DNA of 64,000 nucleotides from NCBI RefSeq assembly GCF_030409315.1, contig NZ_JAUFPS010000028.1, positions 248,001-312,000 of the forward strand, written 5' to 3'. Of the stretch, positions 35,153 to 43,078 are shown in pieces. Below the pieces are notes generated by a model that was not told where the DNA came from, did no database searches, and saw nothing but the letters and a program-made list of their open reading frames with translations. Numbering within the stretch: the stretch's first letter is position 1; every line of letters starts with the position of its first letter. Source of the DNA: Mucilaginibacter flavus (lineage in GTDB: Bacteria > Bacteroidota > Bacteroidia > Sphingobacteriales > Sphingobacteriaceae). The position numbers were made by a program, and so were the translations under genes.

Positions 35153-35362
35153 CGCTTTTTGTTTTTTCTGTTAAGCCTGCAAAGGTTTACTTGGTATTAA
35201 AGCGTATCAATAACGCCAAAACAAAGCCTTTGATACGATAACACCACAAATATATACTTGTTAAGCGGTTAATTGATTTATATATTAGTGATGCTTAATC
35301 ACCAATTTAACCCAAATTTAATATCAATTGAAAACAATTTAACCTGTTTTTATAAACCCGTT

Positions 35363-36850
35363 ATGAAAATAAATTTAACCAGAACTGTTATTACCTCCAT
35401 TGTTACCCTTTGCGTTTTTAGCGCGGCATCGTGTGGTAAAAAATCGTCTGCAGGCACTGTTACCCCTACTAATCCAACTACCCCAACTACGCCAACCACA
35501 CCGCTTAGTAGCGATGTGGCCATGTGGCTTACCACTGCCGATCAAACCAACGTGTTTAGCAAGCAAAACGTGTCAATTAACTTTGGTACCAGCGCTGCTT
35601 CGGGTCCGCTCATCAATATCGATGCGGCAACTACTTACCAAACTATTGACGGTTTTGGTTATTGCCTTACCGGCGGCAGCGCCCAGGTAATTAACCTGAT
35701 GAGCGATGCGCAAAAGAACGATTTGCTTACCGATTTATTTGCTACCGATGGCACGCACATTGGTGTAAGTTATTTAAGAATAACCATCGGCGCATCAGAC
35801 TTAAGCGCTTTTGATTATACTTACGATGAGGTAACTCCCGGCCAAACCGATGTCGACCTCAAAAGCTTCTCTATCGACCAGGAAAAAACTGACCTGATCC
35901 CTATCCTGAAAAAGATCATCGCCATAAATCCCGCTATTAAAATATTAGCTACGCCCTGGACGGCCCCTACCTGGATGAAAACCGCGCCGCTTGGCGAAAA
36001 CGGCTTTAAAGGTGGCAGCTTAAACACGGCCTATTATGATACTTACGCCAAATATTTTGTAAAATACATACAGGCCATGAAAGCCCAGGGCATAACCATT
36101 GATGCCGTTACGCCGCAAAATGAGCCGCTAAATGCCTATAACAACCCGGCCATGACGATGCAATCAAACGAGGAGGCCGATTTTGTAAAAAACAATCTTG
36201 GTCCGCAGTTTAAGGCAGCAGGCATAACAGCCAAAATTATTGTTTACGATCATAATGCCGACCATACCGAGTACCCTACCGATATTTATAAAGACGCGGT
36301 AGCTAACCCTTACATTGATGGTTCGGCATTTCATTTATATGCGGGCAGCATTAATTCTGTTTCGGCCGTGCACGATGCTTATCCAGCTAAAAACCTTTAT
36401 TTTACAGAGCAGTATACCCCGGCAACGGGTGGTTTTGGTGGCGATTTATCGTGGCATGTAACCAACCTTATTGTGGGGGCTACCCGCAACTGGTGCCGCA
36501 ATGTGCTGGAGTGGAACCTGGCTACCGATCCATCGTTCGGGCCGCATACAAACGGGGGCTGCGATGGTTGCAAGGGGGCCTTAACCATCAATTCGGCAAC
36601 ATCGGTTACGCGCAACGTATCGTACTATATTATTGCCCATGCATCTAAATTTGTGAGGCCCGGCGCTGTGAGGATAGCGTCTGATTATCTATCAGCCTTA
36701 CCCAACGTAGCTTTCAGAAACACAGATGGTTCAACGGTGTTGATCGTATTAAATTCGGGTACCAGCCAACAAAGTTTTAGTTTTAAAATTGGCGGCAAAA
36801 CAGCCACTTCAACTTTGGATGCGGGCGCGGTTGCTACATATGTATGGTAA
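35363..36850 (+). CDS. GH30 family glycoside hydrolase lipoprotein
   Basis: Exported hydrolase of 495 residues. The start at 35363 gives a lipoprotein signal (MKINLTRTVITSIVTL..AASC) followed by a Thr/Pro-rich linker. The catalytic barrel contains the acid/base glutamate in [13 protein letters not shown] at about residue 254 and the nucleophile glutamate in LYFTEQYTP at about 348, both as in GH30. GYCLTGGSAQVINLM near the N-terminus and the C-terminal beta-sandwich (VAFRNTDGSTVLIVLNSG) complete the fold. It lacks the beta-trefoil found on the paralogue at 39824. GH30 enzymes of Bacteroidota often cleave beta-1,6-glucan, which is likely here but not certain. Confidence 0.92.
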   Translation: MKINLTRTVITSIVTLCVFSAASCGKKSSAGTVTPTNPTTPTTPTTPLSSDVAMWLTTADQTNVFSKQNVSINFGTSAASGPLINIDAATTYQTIDGFGYCLTGGSAQVINLMSDAQKNDLLTDLFATDGTHIGVSYLRITIGASDLSAFDYTYDEVTPGQTDVDLKSFSIDQEKTDLIPILKKIIAINPAIKILATPWTAPTWMKTAPLGENGFKGGSLNTAYYDTYAKYFVKYIQAMKAQGITIDAVTPQNEPLNAYNNPAMTMQSNEEADFVKNNLGPQFKAAGITAKIIVYDHNADHTEYPTDIYKDAVANPYIDGSAFHLYAGSINSVSAVHDAYPAKNLYFTEQYTPATGGFGGDLSWHVTNLIVGATRNWCRNVLEWNLATDPSFGPHTNGGCDGCKGALTINSATSVTRNVSYYIIAHASKFVRPGAVRIASDYLSALPNVAFRNTDGSTVLIVLNSGTSQQSFSFKIGGKTATSTLDAGAVATYVW

Positions 36851-37007
36851 GTTTTTGAACTTTATAAAAGATATTAAAAAGTAATAGGAAACATAGCCGC
36901 AATTTGATAAAAAAGTGTTTTAAATAACTGTATTATATACCTTTAATAGGAATATAAAAATAAAAATATTATCATTGTACCCGGCCTGACGCTAACCAAC
37001 TAACCAG

Positions 37008-37044
37008 CTTTCGTGCCTGCAAAACCAAGTTGCAGGTACGAAAG
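37008..37044 (+). promoter_or_regulatory. Hairpin-forming inverted repeat upstream of the 7TM sensor gene
   Basis: CTTTCGTGCCTGC (37008-37020) and GCAGGTACGAAAG (37032-37044) pair over 13 positions with one G-T mismatch around an 11-base loop, ending 23 bases before the ATG. It may be an operator, possibly for the DNA-binding domain encoded by the gene itself, or an mRNA structure controlling translation. Confidence 0.45.
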
Positions 37045-37067: not shown

Positions 37068-38978
37068 ATGTACAAACTTTTAACAAGAGTATTTACAACT
37101 TTTTTCCTGTTATTTTTTTGCAACACAATACGCACATCGGCTCAAACTGTTGTACAGCTTAATGATAGCGTAAAGCAACATATATTTGAGTACAAGCAGG
37201 TTTACTACTTTGAAGATACTACCGGCAGAGTGCCTTTTAACCAGGTAAATATCTCCGCTTTTGACGCCCGTTTTAAAGTAAACCCCGAGCCAACCCCGGT
37301 AACACGCAACATCAATTCTGCTTATTGGTACCGCATCAAAATAGGCGGTAACCTTAACACCAAAAACAACTGGCTGCTGGAGTTTTTTGATCAAACTATT
37401 GATAGTATTACCGTTTATTCGCCCAACGCGCAACATCAATATACAGCCACGCTTTTAGGCAGCAACCGCCCGTTTGAAGCCCGTTTTTATCACCACAAAA
37501 ACTTTAGTCTTAATTTGGTTAACCCCAAAACCGGCGATGCGGTTTATTATATCCGTATCCGGTCGCACCATTCGGTAAACGTAATTATGGTGTTGCGTAC
37601 CGTAAGCTGGTTTATAAGTTACGCCCTGGATGAGTATTTCTTTTTCGGCGTTTTTTACGGGATGATATTGGTTTTTGGGCTATATAACCTCATGATGTTT
37701 GTGGCCATGCGCAAGGTGCAATACCTGTACTACATCGCCTATAATATCAGCATCGGCCTTTATGAAATGTGTGCCGATGGTATTGCCTACCAGTACATTT
37801 GGCCCAACAACCCGGTTTGGAACCACTATGCCTATGGCATAGCCCTTTTTGCTGCCAGTATTTTCGCGGTGTTATTTACGCAAAGCCTGCTCAATTTAAA
37901 AATCAACGCGCCACGTTTATATAAAGCTACCAGTTGGATTATTGCCTTAAGAAGCTTGTTTTTTCTGGCCTGCCTTACCATCAATAACAGCTGGTTTAAT
38001 TACAAGATTATTGAGTTTATACCGCTGTTACTGGCCTTTTACAGCGGGTGCTACACTTGGGTTAAAGGCTATAAGCCGGCAAGGTTTTTTGTGATAGGCT
38101 ATTCGTTTTTATTAACCGGCTTTATCATAAAAAGCTGTATTGCGCTAAACTGGTGGATATTGCCGGTTACCGAGTTTGCCTACTACAGCCTGAGCGTTTG
38201 TTTTATTACCGAAATGCTGTTTATTTCTTTTGCCATAGGCGATAGGGTGCGGATACTGAAAAAGCAAAAAGATGACGCCCAGCTGGCTATTATTGCCCAG
38301 ATGAAACAAAACGAGGAGTTGAAAGACAACCTCAACAAACGCCTGGAAGAGCAGGTGCAGGAACGTACTAAAGAGCTCGTTGAAAAATCATCAATGATTG
38401 CCGACCAGAACGAAGAGTTACGTTCTGTTAATGAACTTTTACAGCAACAGGCCGAAGAAATTTCGAGAATGAATGTGTTATTGGAGAAGGATAATATCAT
38501 TCTGCACAACGACATTGAGAAAGTAACGCATGACCGTGTAATGTCGGCCGAGGTTGACTTTGAAGAGTTTAGCAAAATTTACCCCGATAGGGAAACCTGC
38601 TTTAAATTTCTGAGCGATTTGAAATGGGAAAACGGTTATGCCTGCCGCAAATGCAGCGGAACCCATTACGGCGGCGGTCATTTACCTTACAGCAGGCGCT
38701 GCTCCAAATGTGGTTATGAAGAATCGGTAATAGCCTACACCATTTTACAAAACACCCGCATCCCCACCAATAAAGCCTTTTACATGATCTTTTTGATGTA
38801 CTCCACCAAAGGAAAGATCTCCTCACATAAATTATCAGAAATCCTGTCTATCCGCCAAAGCACCTGCTGGGCTTACAGCACCCGCATTAAAAAAGCCATG
38901 GAAGCCCGTAAAAAAGAGATCAAAAACGCCGGGGCCAAGGGTTGGAGCAAGCTGGTAATTGATAATAGCGCGGATTGA
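37068..38978 (+). CDS. 7TMR-DISM membrane sensor fused to an IS1595-type transposase DNA-binding region
   Basis: A 636-residue membrane protein. A signal peptide (to about residue 25) precedes an extracytoplasmic beta-sandwich of the 7TMR-DISMED2 type (about 30-165), which in this family often binds carbohydrate-like ligands. Seven membrane helices follow (about 185-395), then a coiled coil (about 398-485). In place of a kinase or cyclase, the output part (about 500-636) is a zinc ribbon (cysteines at about 526, 529, 545 and 548). After it comes the helical segment that in IS1595-family transposases joins the ribbon to the DDE domain (AYTILQNTRIPTNKAFYMIF, then KISSHKLSEILSI). The DDE nuclease is absent, so this is not a transposase. 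It sits between two GH30 genes. A membrane-tethered DNA-binding regulator is the likely role, by inference. Confidence 0.8.
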   Translation: MYKLLTRVFTTFFLLFFCNTIRTSAQTVVQLNDSVKQHIFEYKQVYYFEDTTGRVPFNQVNISAFDARFKVNPEPTPVTRNINSAYWYRIKIGGNLNTKNNWLLEFFDQTIDSITVYSPNAQHQYTATLLGSNRPFEARFYHHKNFSLNLVNPKTGDAVYYIRIRSHHSVNVIMVLRTVSWFISYALDEYFFFGVFYGMILVFGLYNLMMFVAMRKVQYLYYIAYNISIGLYEMCADGIAYQYIWPNNPVWNHYAYGIALFAASIFAVLFTQSLLNLKINAPRLYKATSWIIALRSLFFLACLTINNSWFNYKIIEFIPLLLAFYSGCYTWVKGYKPARFFVIGYSFLLTGFIIKSCIALNWWILPVTEFAYYSLSVCFITEMLFISFAIGDRVRILKKQKDDAQLAIIAQMKQNEELKDNLNKRLEEQVQERTKELVEKSSMIADQNEELRSVNELLQQQAEEISRMNVLLEKDNIILHNDIEKVTHDRVMSAEVDFEEFSKIYPDRETCFKFLSDLKWENGYACRKCSGTHYGGGHLPYSRRCSKCGYEESVIAYTILQNTRIPTNKAFYMIFLMYSTKGKISSHKLSEILSIRQSTCWAYSTRIKKAMEARKKEIKNAGAKGWSKLVIDNSAD

Positions 38979-39603
38979 AACCTTTATTTCTTCAATAGAA
39001 ATCTGCTGATTTTACAACGCCCGATGTTAATTCTTTTCTTCCTTTTTTTAGAAGCTGTTTAAAAACGGATACGAAAAGAAATTATAGCCCAAAATCGCCA
39101 TTGCTTCGTTATTCCTTCTACCTATGGCTTATCGTTTAAACGCTGATTACGACTCACCCGGTCTACGCTTCGCTGGACCACCCTCTCTCCGGCAAGCCGC
39201 AAAGAGGGTTAAAGAAACAAAAATCTTCTTGCCCCTCTATGCGACGCAGTCGGAGAGAGGGGCAGACGGGCGTAGCCTCGTCGGGGTGAGTCGTCTGCGC
39301 CTTGTTCACATCATGCTGTCCTCCAGATATCGGGAATCTTACCAGAGGCAATAACAATCTGTTTTCTTATTTTTAAACCCCTCTCTTAGTGTTGCCTAAA
39401 CACTATAGCTCTATTTAAATCCAACATCCTTGTTTTTTCTTTAAAATTAATTGCGAAGTAAGCGTATCGCAAAAAAAAAGCTATTTCCTAAAATATCGTT
39501 TTAAAGCGTTTTAGTATTGGTTTTTAATATTTATGCTCCTGTTGTCTAAGCGTATCGAAACATTCATAATGTACTATATATCAGTTATTTATAAATATTT
39601 TAC
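38979..39603. repeat. Long gap containing an inverted-repeat element (39149-39295)
   Basis: The element begins ACGACTCACCCGGTCTACGC and ends GCGTAGCCTCGTCGGGGTGAG followed by TCGT, its imperfect complement, with further nested pairing inside (CCTCTCTCCG against CGGAGAGAGG). It shares its GGGGTGAGTCG end with the element at 13333-13417. A 76-codon frame across it is not a plausible protein. From about 39360 to 39600 the sequence is AT-rich and nothing was recognised. Confidence 0.7.
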
Positions 39604-39635: not shown

Positions 39636-39823
39636 TTTTACAGTTATAAACCATATATACACCTGCCTTCCAGAAAAATAGTTTTAAGCACAGCCTTTTC
39701 GCTGTAGCTTAAGTATTGATGTTTTAAGCATTGGTTAAGCATTTTTGTGGACTTAGCCTTTGCGTAGCCGGTGTTTTGTGGTGGATTTTACCGTGCAAAT
39801 CAATTAAACCAAATAGTAATTTT

Positions 39824-41704
39824 ATGAACATCAACTACAATTTAAAGCGATTGGCAGTCCTCACCCTGCTACCCGCAACATTGCTGTTTTCCTGTAAAAA
39901 AGATGCCAATACAGGGGCGGCCAAAACACAGGAAACAAGCAGTGGTACCGTTAGCCGCGCCGCTAATGAGGGGGTAAACGCCTGGGTAACCACATCCGAT
40001 CAATCCAAACTATTACAGGCCCAAACCAGCTTCAATTTTGCTGCCGATGCCGGCACTAATGCTACTACAGTAACCGTGGATGAAAACACAACTTACCAGG
40101 GCATAGATGGTTTTGGCTTTACCTTAACCGGCGGTAGCGCCAGTTTATTGAACGGACTTGGCGGTAACCAGGCCGCGGTTTTAAGCGAACTTTTTGGAAC
40201 CGCCAACGGGCAAATCGGTATCAGCTATCTGCGTATCAGCATCGGCGCGTCTGATTTAAGTTCAAGCGATTTTACTTACGACCAGGTTTCCGGCGACGTA
40301 AACATGAACAGTTTCAGCATCAGCCAGGAAAACACCGATCTGCTGCCTATTCTTAAAAAAATCATCGCCATAAATCCATCTATCAAAATTATAGCCACCC
40401 CATGGACGGCCCCAACCTGGATGAAGGTTAACACCACAGGAAATAACGGCTATACCGGTGGCAGCTTAAACACCGCGTACTACGATGCCTACGCCCGGTA
40501 CTTTGTAAAATATTTACAAGCCATGCAGGCACAAGGCATCACTATTGATGCTATTACGCCTCAGAACGAACCGCTTAATCCATATAATAATCCAAGTATG
40601 GTGATGCAGGCCAGCGAGGAAGCTAACTTCATTAAAAATAATCTTGGTCCGCAAATAAGGGCGGCTGGTTTCGCCACCAAAATCATCGCCTATGATCATA
40701 ATACGGATAGGATTGATTATCCAGAGGCTGTTTTAGCAGATGCCGGTGCAAACCCTTATGTTGATGGTTCGGCATTTCACTTGTATGCGGGTGCCATTGC
40801 TTCATTAAGCGATGTGCATAACGCGTATCCCGCTAAAAACGTGTACTTCACCGAGCAATGGGTAGGCGCGCCAAGCAATTTTGGCGGCGACCTTTCATGG
40901 CATGTAAACAACCTGGTAATTGGCGCTACGCGTAACTGGAGCCGCAACGTTTTGGAATGGAACTTAGCGGCAGATGTTAACTACAATCCGCATACCGCCG
41001 GTGGTTGCAGCACCTGCGTAGGTGCTATAACCGTAAGCGGCACATCCATTACCCGCAATGTGGGTTATTACATTATTGGTCACGCGGCACGTTTCGTTCG
41101 CCCGGGAGCTGTAAGGATCTCCTCAAATCTATCCGGCGATATCCAGAACGTGGCTTTCAAAAATTCTGATGGCAGCAAGGTACTTGTCGCGTTAAACAGT
41201 GGGTCGGCCAGTGTTACCTTCAAAGTGAAATGGGGTGCCGAATCTTTCACTTACACCCTGGCAGCAGGCGCGGTAGCTACTTTTAAATGGAGCGGCACGC
41301 AATCAAGCGGTTCATCATCCGGCGCGCCTATCGGTTCGATAATTACCCTCAAAGGCATCAACAATCAATATGTAAGCAGCGAGAACGGCACTACAGCCAT
41401 GAACTGTAACCGCCCAACCGCATCGGCATGGGAGCAGTTTACCGTGGTTGATGCCGGTGCGGGCAAAATAGCGCTGCAGGGGATGGGCAAATACGTATCG
41501 AGCGAAAACGGTACCCAGGCCATCACCTGTAACCGTGCCACTTACGGCGACTGGGAAAAGTTTGACTGGGTAGTAAACGCCGATGGTACAATTTCCTTGC
41601 GCGGCAACAACGGCAAATACGTAAGCAGCGAAAACGGTACCCAGGCCATGACCTGTAACCGGGCAAGCATATCTGGCTGGGAAGCGTTTGGCGTAAATAA
41701 ATAA
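39824..41704 (+). CDS. GH30 family glycoside hydrolase lipoprotein with C-terminal beta-trefoil module
   Basis: A 626-residue lipoprotein; start at 39824 gives the lipobox LLFSC followed by KKD. The GH30 barrel is closely related to that at 35363, with acid/base glutamate in [13 protein letters not shown] (about residue 249) and nucleophile glutamate in VYFTEQWVG (about 344). After the beta-sandwich a Ser/Gly linker ([13 protein letters not shown]) leads to three repeats of about 40 residues (505-626). Each has YVSSENGT, a CNR and a WE.F element, forming a fascin-like beta-trefoil. The same module ends the GH16 protein downstream, so it is probably a carbohydrate-binding domain, perhaps of the CBM92 type that binds beta-1,3/1,6-glucans. 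Likely acts on surface-bound fungal-type glucan. Confidence 0.92.
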
Positions 41705-41705
41705 A

Positions 41706-41803
41706 AAATGTAGAGACGCAATATTTTGCGTCTCCTGCTTGCAAATCAGACTTGCAAATTTGCTTGCCTGGTGGGAGACGCAAAATATTGCGTCTCTACA
41801 TTA
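41706..41803. repeat. Palindromic element with perfect 29-bp arms, each arm itself a hairpin
   Basis: The arms (41707-41735 and 41774-41802) are exact reverse complements. Within each arm GAGACGCAA and TTGCGTCTC form a second palindrome around TATT. The element begins right after the GH30 stop codon and ends 50 bases before the GH16 start. It could form a large cruciform and may act as an mRNA stabiliser or partial terminator between the two genes, or be a small mobile repeat. Confidence 0.9.
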
Positions 41804-41851
41804 AAACATAAATCCCTGCAATCCACCAATTATTTACCAAATACAAACATT

Positions 41852-43078
41852 ATGAAAACAATCTTAAACTTAAAAAAGGGTGCCTACGCGCTGCTGGCCA
41901 TAGCAGCTATGGCCACATCCTGCAAAAAAGACCTCAACCATGCATCATCACCGGCCAATGTAGCTGCGGCTCAGTCCAATCAAACTACTACACCAAGAGC
42001 GGCCACGCTTGTCTGGAGTGATGAATTTAACGGTACCAGCGTAAACACCGCCAACTGGAACATCGACAATGGCAACCCCGGTGTAAACAACGAGAAAGAG
42101 TATTACCAGGCCGCGAATGCAACGGTATCGGGCGGTTATTTAACCATTACAGCGCGTAAGGAAACCGTGGGCGGTCAGCCGTATACTTCGGCCAAATTAA
42201 CCACAGCAGGCAAATTTCAGCCCACTTACGGGCGTATTGAAGCCAGCATTAAACTGCCTGCCGTACAAGGCACCTGGCCTGCGTTTTGGATGTTGGGCGC
42301 TAATATTGGCACCGTAGGCTGGCCACAATGCGGCGAAATTGACATTATGGAGCAGGTAAATACCTCTAACACTATATTGGGTACCATGCACTGGTATGTT
42401 AACGGGCACTCGCAATATGGTGGCAGCACCACCACATCGCCAACGGGATTTCATACTTACGCGGTGGAGTGGGATACCAACTCTATCCGCTGGTATGTTG
42501 ATAATACCTTGTATGTAACCGGCAATATCGCTGGCAACATTAACAACACCGGCGCTTTCCATAATCCGTTCTTTATTATTCTTAACCTGGCTATCGGCGG
42601 CGATTTGCCGGGCAATACCATTAATGATGGTGCCCTGCCCTGCAACATGGTGGTTGATTATGTGCGTGTTTACAACCTATCGGGCAGTAGTACTTCGCCG
42701 CCAATAGGCTCAAACATCACCCTTAAAGGTTTTAACAATCAATATGTAAGCGGCGAAAACGGTACACAGGCCATGAATTGTAACCGTGCTACCGCTTCGG
42801 CATGGGAAACTTTTACCGTGGTTGATGCCGGCGGTGGTAAAGTTGCCCTGCAAAGTATGGGCAAATATGTGAGCAGCGAAAACGGTACGCAGGCTATTAC
42901 CTGTAACCGCACCGCGATTGGCGATTGGGAAAAATTTGATTGGATTACCACCTCTGATGGTAAGGTAACCCTTCGGGGCAATAATGGCGATTTCATATCG
43001 AGCGAAAACGGCACGCAACCCATGACCTGTACCCGTACAACAGCATCGGGCTGGGAAGCTTTTGGAATAAATCAATAG
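41852..43078 (+). CDS. GH16 family beta-glucanase (laminarinase-like) lipoprotein with beta-trefoil module
   Basis: A 408-residue lipoprotein; start at 41852 gives a signal with lipobox MATSC followed by KKD. The longer open frame upstream runs through the palindromic repeat and is not coding. The GH16 jelly-roll (about residues 55-280) has the catalytic motif GEIDIMEQ at about 160, where the two glutamates are nucleophile and acid/base, and WPAFWMLG before it. This form of the motif is typical of endo-beta-1,3-glucanases. After a short linker the three-repeat trefoil (about 287-408) follows, close to that of the GH30 upstream even at DNA level. Expected to cut beta-1,3-glucan at the cell surface. 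Confidence 0.94.

Follow-up and report, generated by a model that had tools for sequence, protein, structure and literature searches.

SusR-like regulators such as SusR (BT3705) and BT3309 are membrane proteins with a periplasmic sensor and a cytoplasmic DNA-binding end, often encoded beside susCD; the sites predicted for SusR are direct repeats with a spacing of 67 or 77 bp (PMC3878776), and the fungal 1,6-beta-glucan locus BT3309-BT3314 of B. thetaiotaomicron runs in the order regulator, SusC, SusD, a glycoside hydrolase (GH) of family GH30_3 and, further on, a GH3 (PMC5481569). Hybrid two-component systems (HTCS) are built with a histidine kinase, a receiver and an AraC domain (PMC3878776), and ChiS of Vibrio is described as a membrane sensor that binds DNA itself and turns on a glycan programme, its DNA-binding domain occurring also with 7TMR-DISM (PMC8092284). 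Here we describe a gene at 37068-38978 on the forward strand of a 64,000-nucleotide stretch of the Mucilaginibacter flavus genome (contig NZ_JAUFPS010000028.1, positions 248,001 to 312,000; hereafter the window, in whose numbering plain coordinates are given). Its product of 636 residues is predicted from the list of open reading frames (ORFs), profile searches and alignments to join a 7TMR-DISM sensor, a coiled coil and the zinc ribbon and helix-turn-helix (HTH) region of an IS1595-type transposase. In our view it is probably a one-component transcription regulator that is embedded in the membrane and controls genes for the utilization of beta-glucan, with an output taken from an IS1595 transposase.

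Architecture and conservation of the probable regulator

Both sensor domains, 7TMR-DISMED2 (residues 43-176, 37194..37595; E 9.4e-27) and 7TMR-DISM_7TM (residues 189-393, 37632..38246; E 6e-44), score above their Pfam cut-offs, which places the protein among the 7TMR-DISM receptors. Proteins of this type have their DISM domain in the periplasm and their C-terminus in the cytoplasm. The solved chains nearest to the sensor domain are RetS-type sensor domains (3jyb/9jpe/2xbz), all distant (E 0.03-0.05). Residues 1-26 (37068..37145) read as a putative N-terminal leader, left unflagged by a simple hydropathy scan at its cut-off, and about residues 396-490 (38253..38537) as a putative coiled coil with weak profile matches to coiled-coil chains (E 0.24 and 0.74), in agreement with the first-pass annotation, which had placed a coiled coil between sensor and output.

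The output region consists of an IS1595-type zinc ribbon (residues 508-550, 38589..38717), identified by Pfam, alignments and comparison with transposases, and of an HTH-like region (residues 562-619, 38751..38924) that matches positions 1-59 of 215 of the NCBIfam profile transpos_IS1595 at E 2.5e-7, the term HTH being our own reading. The four ribbon cysteines C526, C529, C545 and C548, noted at first as intact, do not vary in either of two alignments (43 and 55 rows), which have some genomes in common. Three IS1595-type transposases of 305-331 residues (L225-L227) align over about 115 residues (regulator residues ~496-615) at 38-44% identity, with E ~1e-28 when the 64-kb window is searched, and a profile of the regulator family matches them at E ~1e-38; the proposed similarity of residues 500-636 to IS1595 transposases is thus borne out, and Pfam, NCBIfam and the transposase alignments agree on a 7TMR-DISM sensor followed by this ribbon and its helices. 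A DDE nuclease, present as DDE_Tnp_IS1595 in transposases L225 and L226, was detected neither in the 636-residue protein (Pfam, NCBIfam) nor in the downstream DNA, where the first-pass annotation had envisaged that a frameshift after 38978 might hide one; tblastn of L225-L227 against the window returned nothing better than E 2 outside the module. A complete transposase broken by a frameshift is ruled out, since the downstream DNA lacks DDE sequence and the C-terminus is conserved.

The protein therefore resembles IS1595-family transposases in the N-terminal zinc ribbon and following helices, and is unlike them in lacking the nuclease, in being fused to a receptor and in being encoded by a single-copy gene in its own genome, conserved in place. 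A GWSKLV-like tail is common to the regulator and its relatives; a search for solved relatives of the C-terminal module gave chance-level matches only. A search for repeats in the 219 bases upstream of the regulator gene showed the hairpin treated below and short pairs. Judged by sequence, a sensor and a DNA-binding-type domain occur in one polypeptide, as expected of a one-component membrane regulator.

By our own count, 51 single matches among 100 relatives run to query residue 631-636; they come from 36 of 61 same-genus genomes (its own included) and from one genome of another family (G074), and two same-genus genomes (G050 and G057) carry the regulator split over two matches. Among named genomes, a scan gave 449 stretches with the pattern, 382 of which encode some relative (tblastn E <= 1e-3), and the best 80 of these (L085-L164) were used. 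They are 55-95% identical to the window protein, the nearest being that of M. dorajii (95%), and belong to Mucilaginibacter, Pedobacter, Arcticibacter, Desertivirga, Chitinophaga, Dyadobacter and a few further Bacteroidetes; 79 span residue <=25 to >=630, the remaining one being cut by a contig end. The C-terminal module is present in at least 114 of 301 family genomes at E <= 1e-25, and 40 of 395 genomes in a phylum sample match it at E <= 1e-6, the matching proteins comprising regulators and transposases as well as short proteins. Pairwise dN/dS (nonsynonymous to synonymous substitution ratio) against M. dorajii is ~0.01-0.08 in four domains. The regulator is conserved under purifying selection, and a recent capture of the transposase part is ruled out by its conservation across relatives. 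The capture proposed at first is upheld in so far as transposase homology and conservation suggest that a mobile-element DNA-binding part was taken over; it was not a one-off event confined to this genome, the protein belonging to a widespread regulator family.

In a tree of 63 modules, 33 regulator modules and one short protein group together with support of 94/87, just under the level that the tree program marks with a star, and this group has as its neighbours six IS1595 transposases along with another short protein. On the tree the regulator label changes 2 times, compared with 21 times on average in shuffles, and a single origin appears in just 4% of bootstrap trees, owing to the short protein within the group. 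A protein of 1090 residues from Desertivirga arenae (L144:648-3920), in which the module stands behind seven Reg_prop stretches and a Y_Y_Y domain, falls inside the regulator group as one of the 33 modules; we take this propeller to be of the HTCS sensor type, so that here an HTCS-type sensor is joined to the zinc ribbon/HTH module, and its position in the tree supports the module as a transferable output. A frame of 1101 residues at G813:C12:1003165 is a candidate second case.

Other occurrences of the module include four stand-alone zinc ribbon/HTH proteins of 154-202 residues (L230, L231, L232 and L233), closely alike and found in four genomes of one genus (g45), which have no nuclease part and are possibly separate domesticated regulators. 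The genome from which L225, L226 and L227 were taken (G257) has nine module matches in frames of 306-337 residues, IS1595 transposases near the regulator module, and in another genome (G017) module copies lie at contig ends, suggesting repeated elements.

Gene neighbourhood and the predicted operator

The regulator gene lies between two GH30 genes, as the first-pass annotation had stated. Their ORFs extend over 35273-36850 and 39731-41704, and the genes themselves, both on the forward strand, identified by Pfam and probable targets of the regulator, are placed at 35363..36850 and 39824..41704, the second carrying a C-terminal fascin/DUF7910-like domain. A GH16 gene identified by Pfam (41726..43078, forward strand, start as given by the ORF caller), a possible co-target, begins 21 bp after the second GH30 gene in the same direction; no susCD lies beside the regulator gene in the window. 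Both GH30 enzymes have 5ngk as their best solved relative (E 4e-101 for the first), a structure of the endo-1,6-beta-glucanase BT3312 (PMC5481569), and a Pedobacter GH30 matches the NCBIfam model of BT3312 at E 2.5e-121, under the cut-off; in their sequences the GH30 proteins resemble this endo-1,6-beta-glucanase.

The neighbourhood recurs across relatives. In 43 regions of ~11-20 kb (the window and 42 from the genomes of the 100-relative search, labelled from the Pfam results of the window and by reading, with checks on single members), a GH30-cluster gene was present in 33, SusC in 22, SusD in 20, GH16 in 20 and GH5 in 19. Among the 80 named loci, several of which are cut by contig ends and many of which come from the same species as the 43 regions, GH30 occurs within ~9 kb in 72 (in one case as a fragment of 102 residues), SusC and SusD in 39 each, GH16 in 38, GH5 in 27 and GH3 in 13. 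The usual order in Pedobacter, Chitinophaga and Dyadobacter is regulator, SusC, SusD, GH30, sometimes with GH3 between. As a control we used the regions of 20 sibling 7TMR-DISM proteins of the same genus, hand-chosen from the 100 relatives and about 21-30% identical over the sensor, where GH30 was found in 0/20, SusC in 2/20, SusD in 1/20 and GH3 in 1/20; per genome, the GH30 search gave 0-8 matches.

Alignment of the gaps between regulator and susC revealed a box with the consensus GGTATTTAAGCGTATCA in two copies of the same direction. The motif was drawn from 29 gaps shorter than 800 bp among L131-L164, which are mostly from Pedobacter and not independent, with the window excluded; a mismatch search found both copies in 20 of the 29, at 89-93 bp from each other (14 of them at 92), and 44 sites were turned into a position weight matrix (PWM). 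In the window, a perfect copy, GGTATTAAAGCGTATCA (35193..35209, forward strand, 0 mismatches, PWM 30.0, the maximum), is predicted as an operator box, with 153 bp between it and the start codon (ATG) of the first GH30 gene; a partial inverted copy, 2 bases shorter, read from the sequence with no statistics attached, faces it at 35230..35245 on the reverse strand. Before the second GH30 gene, on the forward strand, a downstream copy (39541..39557, PWM 19.4) lies 88 bp from an upstream one (39453..39469) that retains the core AAGCGTATCG only and is picked up by the paired core pattern; the cores themselves are at 39462-39469 and 39550-39557. The upstream copy falls below the thresholds of the full 17-mer PWM, too weak for the full-matrix pair test, which found no pair in the window. 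At PWM >= 10 the 64-kb window contains exactly two matches, 35193 and 39541, one upstream of each GH30 gene, compared with 0.3 matches per window in ten local shuffles.

Outside the motif set, 46 loci (L085-L130, 43 of them named Mucilaginibacter) yielded 10 pairs at 86-95 bp in 10 loci, all 10 preceding GH30, and the remaining 34 loci yielded 31 pairs in 30 loci, 27 before SusC, 2 before GH30, 1 before GH3 and 1 before an unlabelled gene. No pair was found in 354 kb of control loci, the sibling-receptor loci being without pairs, and nine other spacing bins held 0-4 pairs each. The 46 loci also have 23 single boxes scoring >= 12, of which 13 precede GH30, 4 GH5 and 2 GH16, with 4 before no labelled gene. 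In 23 of 27 pairs, 75-171 bp separate the end of the second box from the susC start as called, and a related repeat with a spacing of 88-91 bp is retained in four diverged paralog loci (L072, L073, L076 and L081). In many of the regulator-susC gaps of L131-L164 a palindrome-like CTGATTATCAG lies between both boxes.

Searched over 100 genomes, the paired core pattern matches in 40. Of the 30 pairs whose genomes were also part of the GH30 search, 7 are followed within 1 kb by a GH30 domain of the same strand, where a rough estimate gives ~0.005 expected; 5 of these 7 are away from regulator genes, including C26:71556-71651 of the regulator's own genome.

The inverted repeat that the first-pass annotation had noted before the start of the regulator gene does exist (37008..37044, forward strand, with arms 37008-37022 and 37030-37044), although it is probably not the operator. 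In 13 close orthologs 93.8% of the cells in its arms are paired, 7 of the 15 pairs have changed on both sides, and covariation reaches 0.371, against 0.238 in shuffled alignments (0 of 500 shuffles as high), values that are somewhat favoured by taking the structure from the window and by the relatedness of the sequences. We regard it as probably an RNA hairpin in the 5' leader, since its arms covary, whereas a protein site would preserve letters over pairing; Rfam gave no match at the stem-loop and one chance-level match elsewhere. A conserved block, TTAAATAACTGTAT...TTTAATAGGA...ATTGTA, at 36920-36979 upstream of the regulator in many aligned orthologs, is probably the regulator promoter.

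Further features were seen in the same part of the window. The gap after the regulator gene, at about 39150-39300, contains inverted, repeat-like sequence recognized by eye. The fascin/DUF7910-like domain ends both the second GH30 protein (about 41360-41704), where its solved relatives are domains from a GH18 enzyme (7zoi/7zoh), and the GH16 protein (42737-43078).

Proposed mechanism and rival explanations

In the mechanism that we propose, the periplasmic 7TMR-DISMED2 domain and the 7TM bundle would sense a beta-glucan oligosaccharide, and the coiled coil would couple sensing to a presumably dimeric cytoplasmic output. This output, a zinc ribbon and HTH, was taken over, probably once, from the N-terminal part with which an IS1595-family transposase binds DNA, without the DDE nuclease, and may bind the two directly repeated GGTATTTAAGCGTATCA boxes ~88-92 bp apart upstream of susC or GH30, with looping of the DNA between them. 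Binding would most likely activate the susC/GH30 genes, activation being likelier than repression because of the analogy with SusR. Conservation, neighbourhood, controls and the operator-like motif speak for two further suggestions of the first-pass annotation, namely a one-protein route from a membrane sensor to DNA and a control of the flanking glucanase genes, both of which we hold to be likely. More tentatively, and with somewhat less than even confidence, we consider that these proteins make up a class of their own among the glycan regulators of Bacteroidota, based on a domesticated IS1595 module with interchangeable sensors, in which a membrane dimer bridges boxes ~90 bp apart in the manner of transposase synapsis.

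Several observations weigh against an assignment of the boxes to this regulator. Many of the loci are close relatives and hence not independent; 36 of the 46 loci outside the motif set have no pair at the threshold used, and no clear repeat was seen in L235/L236 or in the paralog loci L064, L077, L078 and L083. In the regulator's own genome 10 places have <=1 mismatch to the box, of which 2 precede GH30 (C21:283193, in the window, and C26:71635, the latter with a weaker copy 88 bp upstream) and 8 are elsewhere, and 23 of the 30 genome-wide pairs lie away from GH30, most of these looking like chance occurrences. Where a genome has the regulator, its remote GH30 genes have the pair in only 5 of 20 cases, and the pair also occurs in one of 16 regions taken from genomes in which no regulator was detected (the genome concerned being 58% complete), so that the tendency of the pair to follow the regulator is weak and suggestive only. 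No terminal inverted repeats were found around the three near insertion sequence (IS) copies L225-L227, and no strong boxes in IS flanks; inheritance of the DNA specificity from the IS, and with it an operator derived from IS ends, is unsupported by these observations. We give a rather small chance to the possibility that the boxes serve another transcription factor, for example a neighbouring two-component system, the regulator being a mere neighbour or acting through protein contact. In favour of it, besides the GH30 gene that carries a box pair in a genome without detected regulator, 13 of the 29 motif loci have a pair of proteins of 224-226 and 434-441 residues directly before the regulator which, judged by length and reading (L140:6862-8904 and 12 others), resemble a response regulator and a histidine kinase; these 13 loci among the 80, all within the motif set, are Pedobacter as far as listed. 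However, the other 16 motif loci and the window have no such pair directly before the regulator and yet contain the box, the output domain has its origin in the DNA-binding part of a transposase, related repeats persist in the diverged paralog loci, and box pairs are absent from the loci of sibling receptors.

A repressor released on glucan sensing, in place of an activator, is likewise unlikely, while keeping an appreciable share of our expectation: the distance of the box end from the susC start in 23 of 27 pairs would be compatible with repression, but by our reading of the alignment the boxes sit upstream of a conserved block taken for the promoter, and the Bacteroidota membrane regulator SusR is described as an activator of its operons (PMC3878776). 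The single-sequence profile scores of the output domain are weak, and they too count against the interpretation preferred here: Pfam Zn_ribbon_IS1595 at 508-550 reaches E 7e-4 and 20 bits against a cut-off of 25.4, and transpos_IS1595 30.8 bits against 75. Homology to IS1595 transposases is nevertheless firm on the alignments. The sub-threshold ribbon might point to a functionless transposon fragment, captured by chance or now decaying, at the end of a sensor gene, but full length is kept in 36 of 61 same-genus genomes and 79 of the best 80 named loci, dN/dS is low and the cysteines are invariant; we assign practically no probability to this explanation, which is already refuted by conservation. 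It is very improbable, too, that an ordinary SusR-family or HTCS regulator has been mis-seen, in spite of the similar gene order of the BT3309-BT3314 1,6-beta-glucan locus, whose regulator is said to be of 'SusR type' (PMC5481569), and of the predicted SusR motifs, which are long-spaced direct repeats as well (PMC3878776). The SusR-like candidate L241, picked by locus context to stand in for SusR/BT3309 and containing DUF6377, which we presume to mark the SusR family, has a different C-terminus, with E 0.4 for the family profile and nothing below E 3 by blastp; no histidine kinase, receiver or AraC domain was found in the window protein at E <= 1 (Pfam).

Comparison with known regulators

On the evidence of L241, the regulator has neither a DUF6377-type region nor the SusR C-terminal domain, and membership in the SusR family is ruled out on this context candidate, whose C-terminus shows no detectable similarity; the other context candidates (L221, L223, two in L224, and L243) were unrelated proteins. 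The regulator family shares with SusR-like regulators the location beside susC/susD and the long-spaced direct repeats, and differs in that L241 is without 7TMR-DISM and zinc ribbon and in the spacing of the sites; by these comparisons it would work like SusR without being one. With HTCS it has in common a single membrane protein reaching from a periplasmic sugar sensor to DNA in utilization loci, but as it has none of the histidine kinase, receiver and AraC domains it does not belong among them. It has the same sensor domains as other 7TMR-DISM receptors, whereas the C-termini of the 20 siblings were read by eye as histidine kinase modules and those of the regulator family are the transposase-derived module. 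ChiS is, by its description, a functional parallel; in contrast to the module found here, its domain is called non-homologous to known DNA-binding domains, and the word 'transposase' is absent from that text (PMC8092284).

What appears to be new is a membrane-bound glycan regulator with a transposase-derived output and its own predicted operator. An open-access search found no literature on a fusion of 7TMR-DISM with an IS1595 module, which may be in print elsewhere. If our interpretation is true, the family would clearly exemplify, in bacteria, how the DNA-binding domain of a transposase has become the output of a signal receptor, and would be a further type of polysaccharide-locus regulator beside SusR, HTCS and extracytoplasmic function (ECF) sigma/anti-sigma pairs. 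On the more tentative reading of a bridging dimer, the logic of synapsis, by which a transposase bridges the two ends of its element, would have been reused for gene control. The concrete operator prediction makes receptor, site and target genes testable in laboratory strains, and beta-glucan regulons would become predictable in this part of Bacteroidota.

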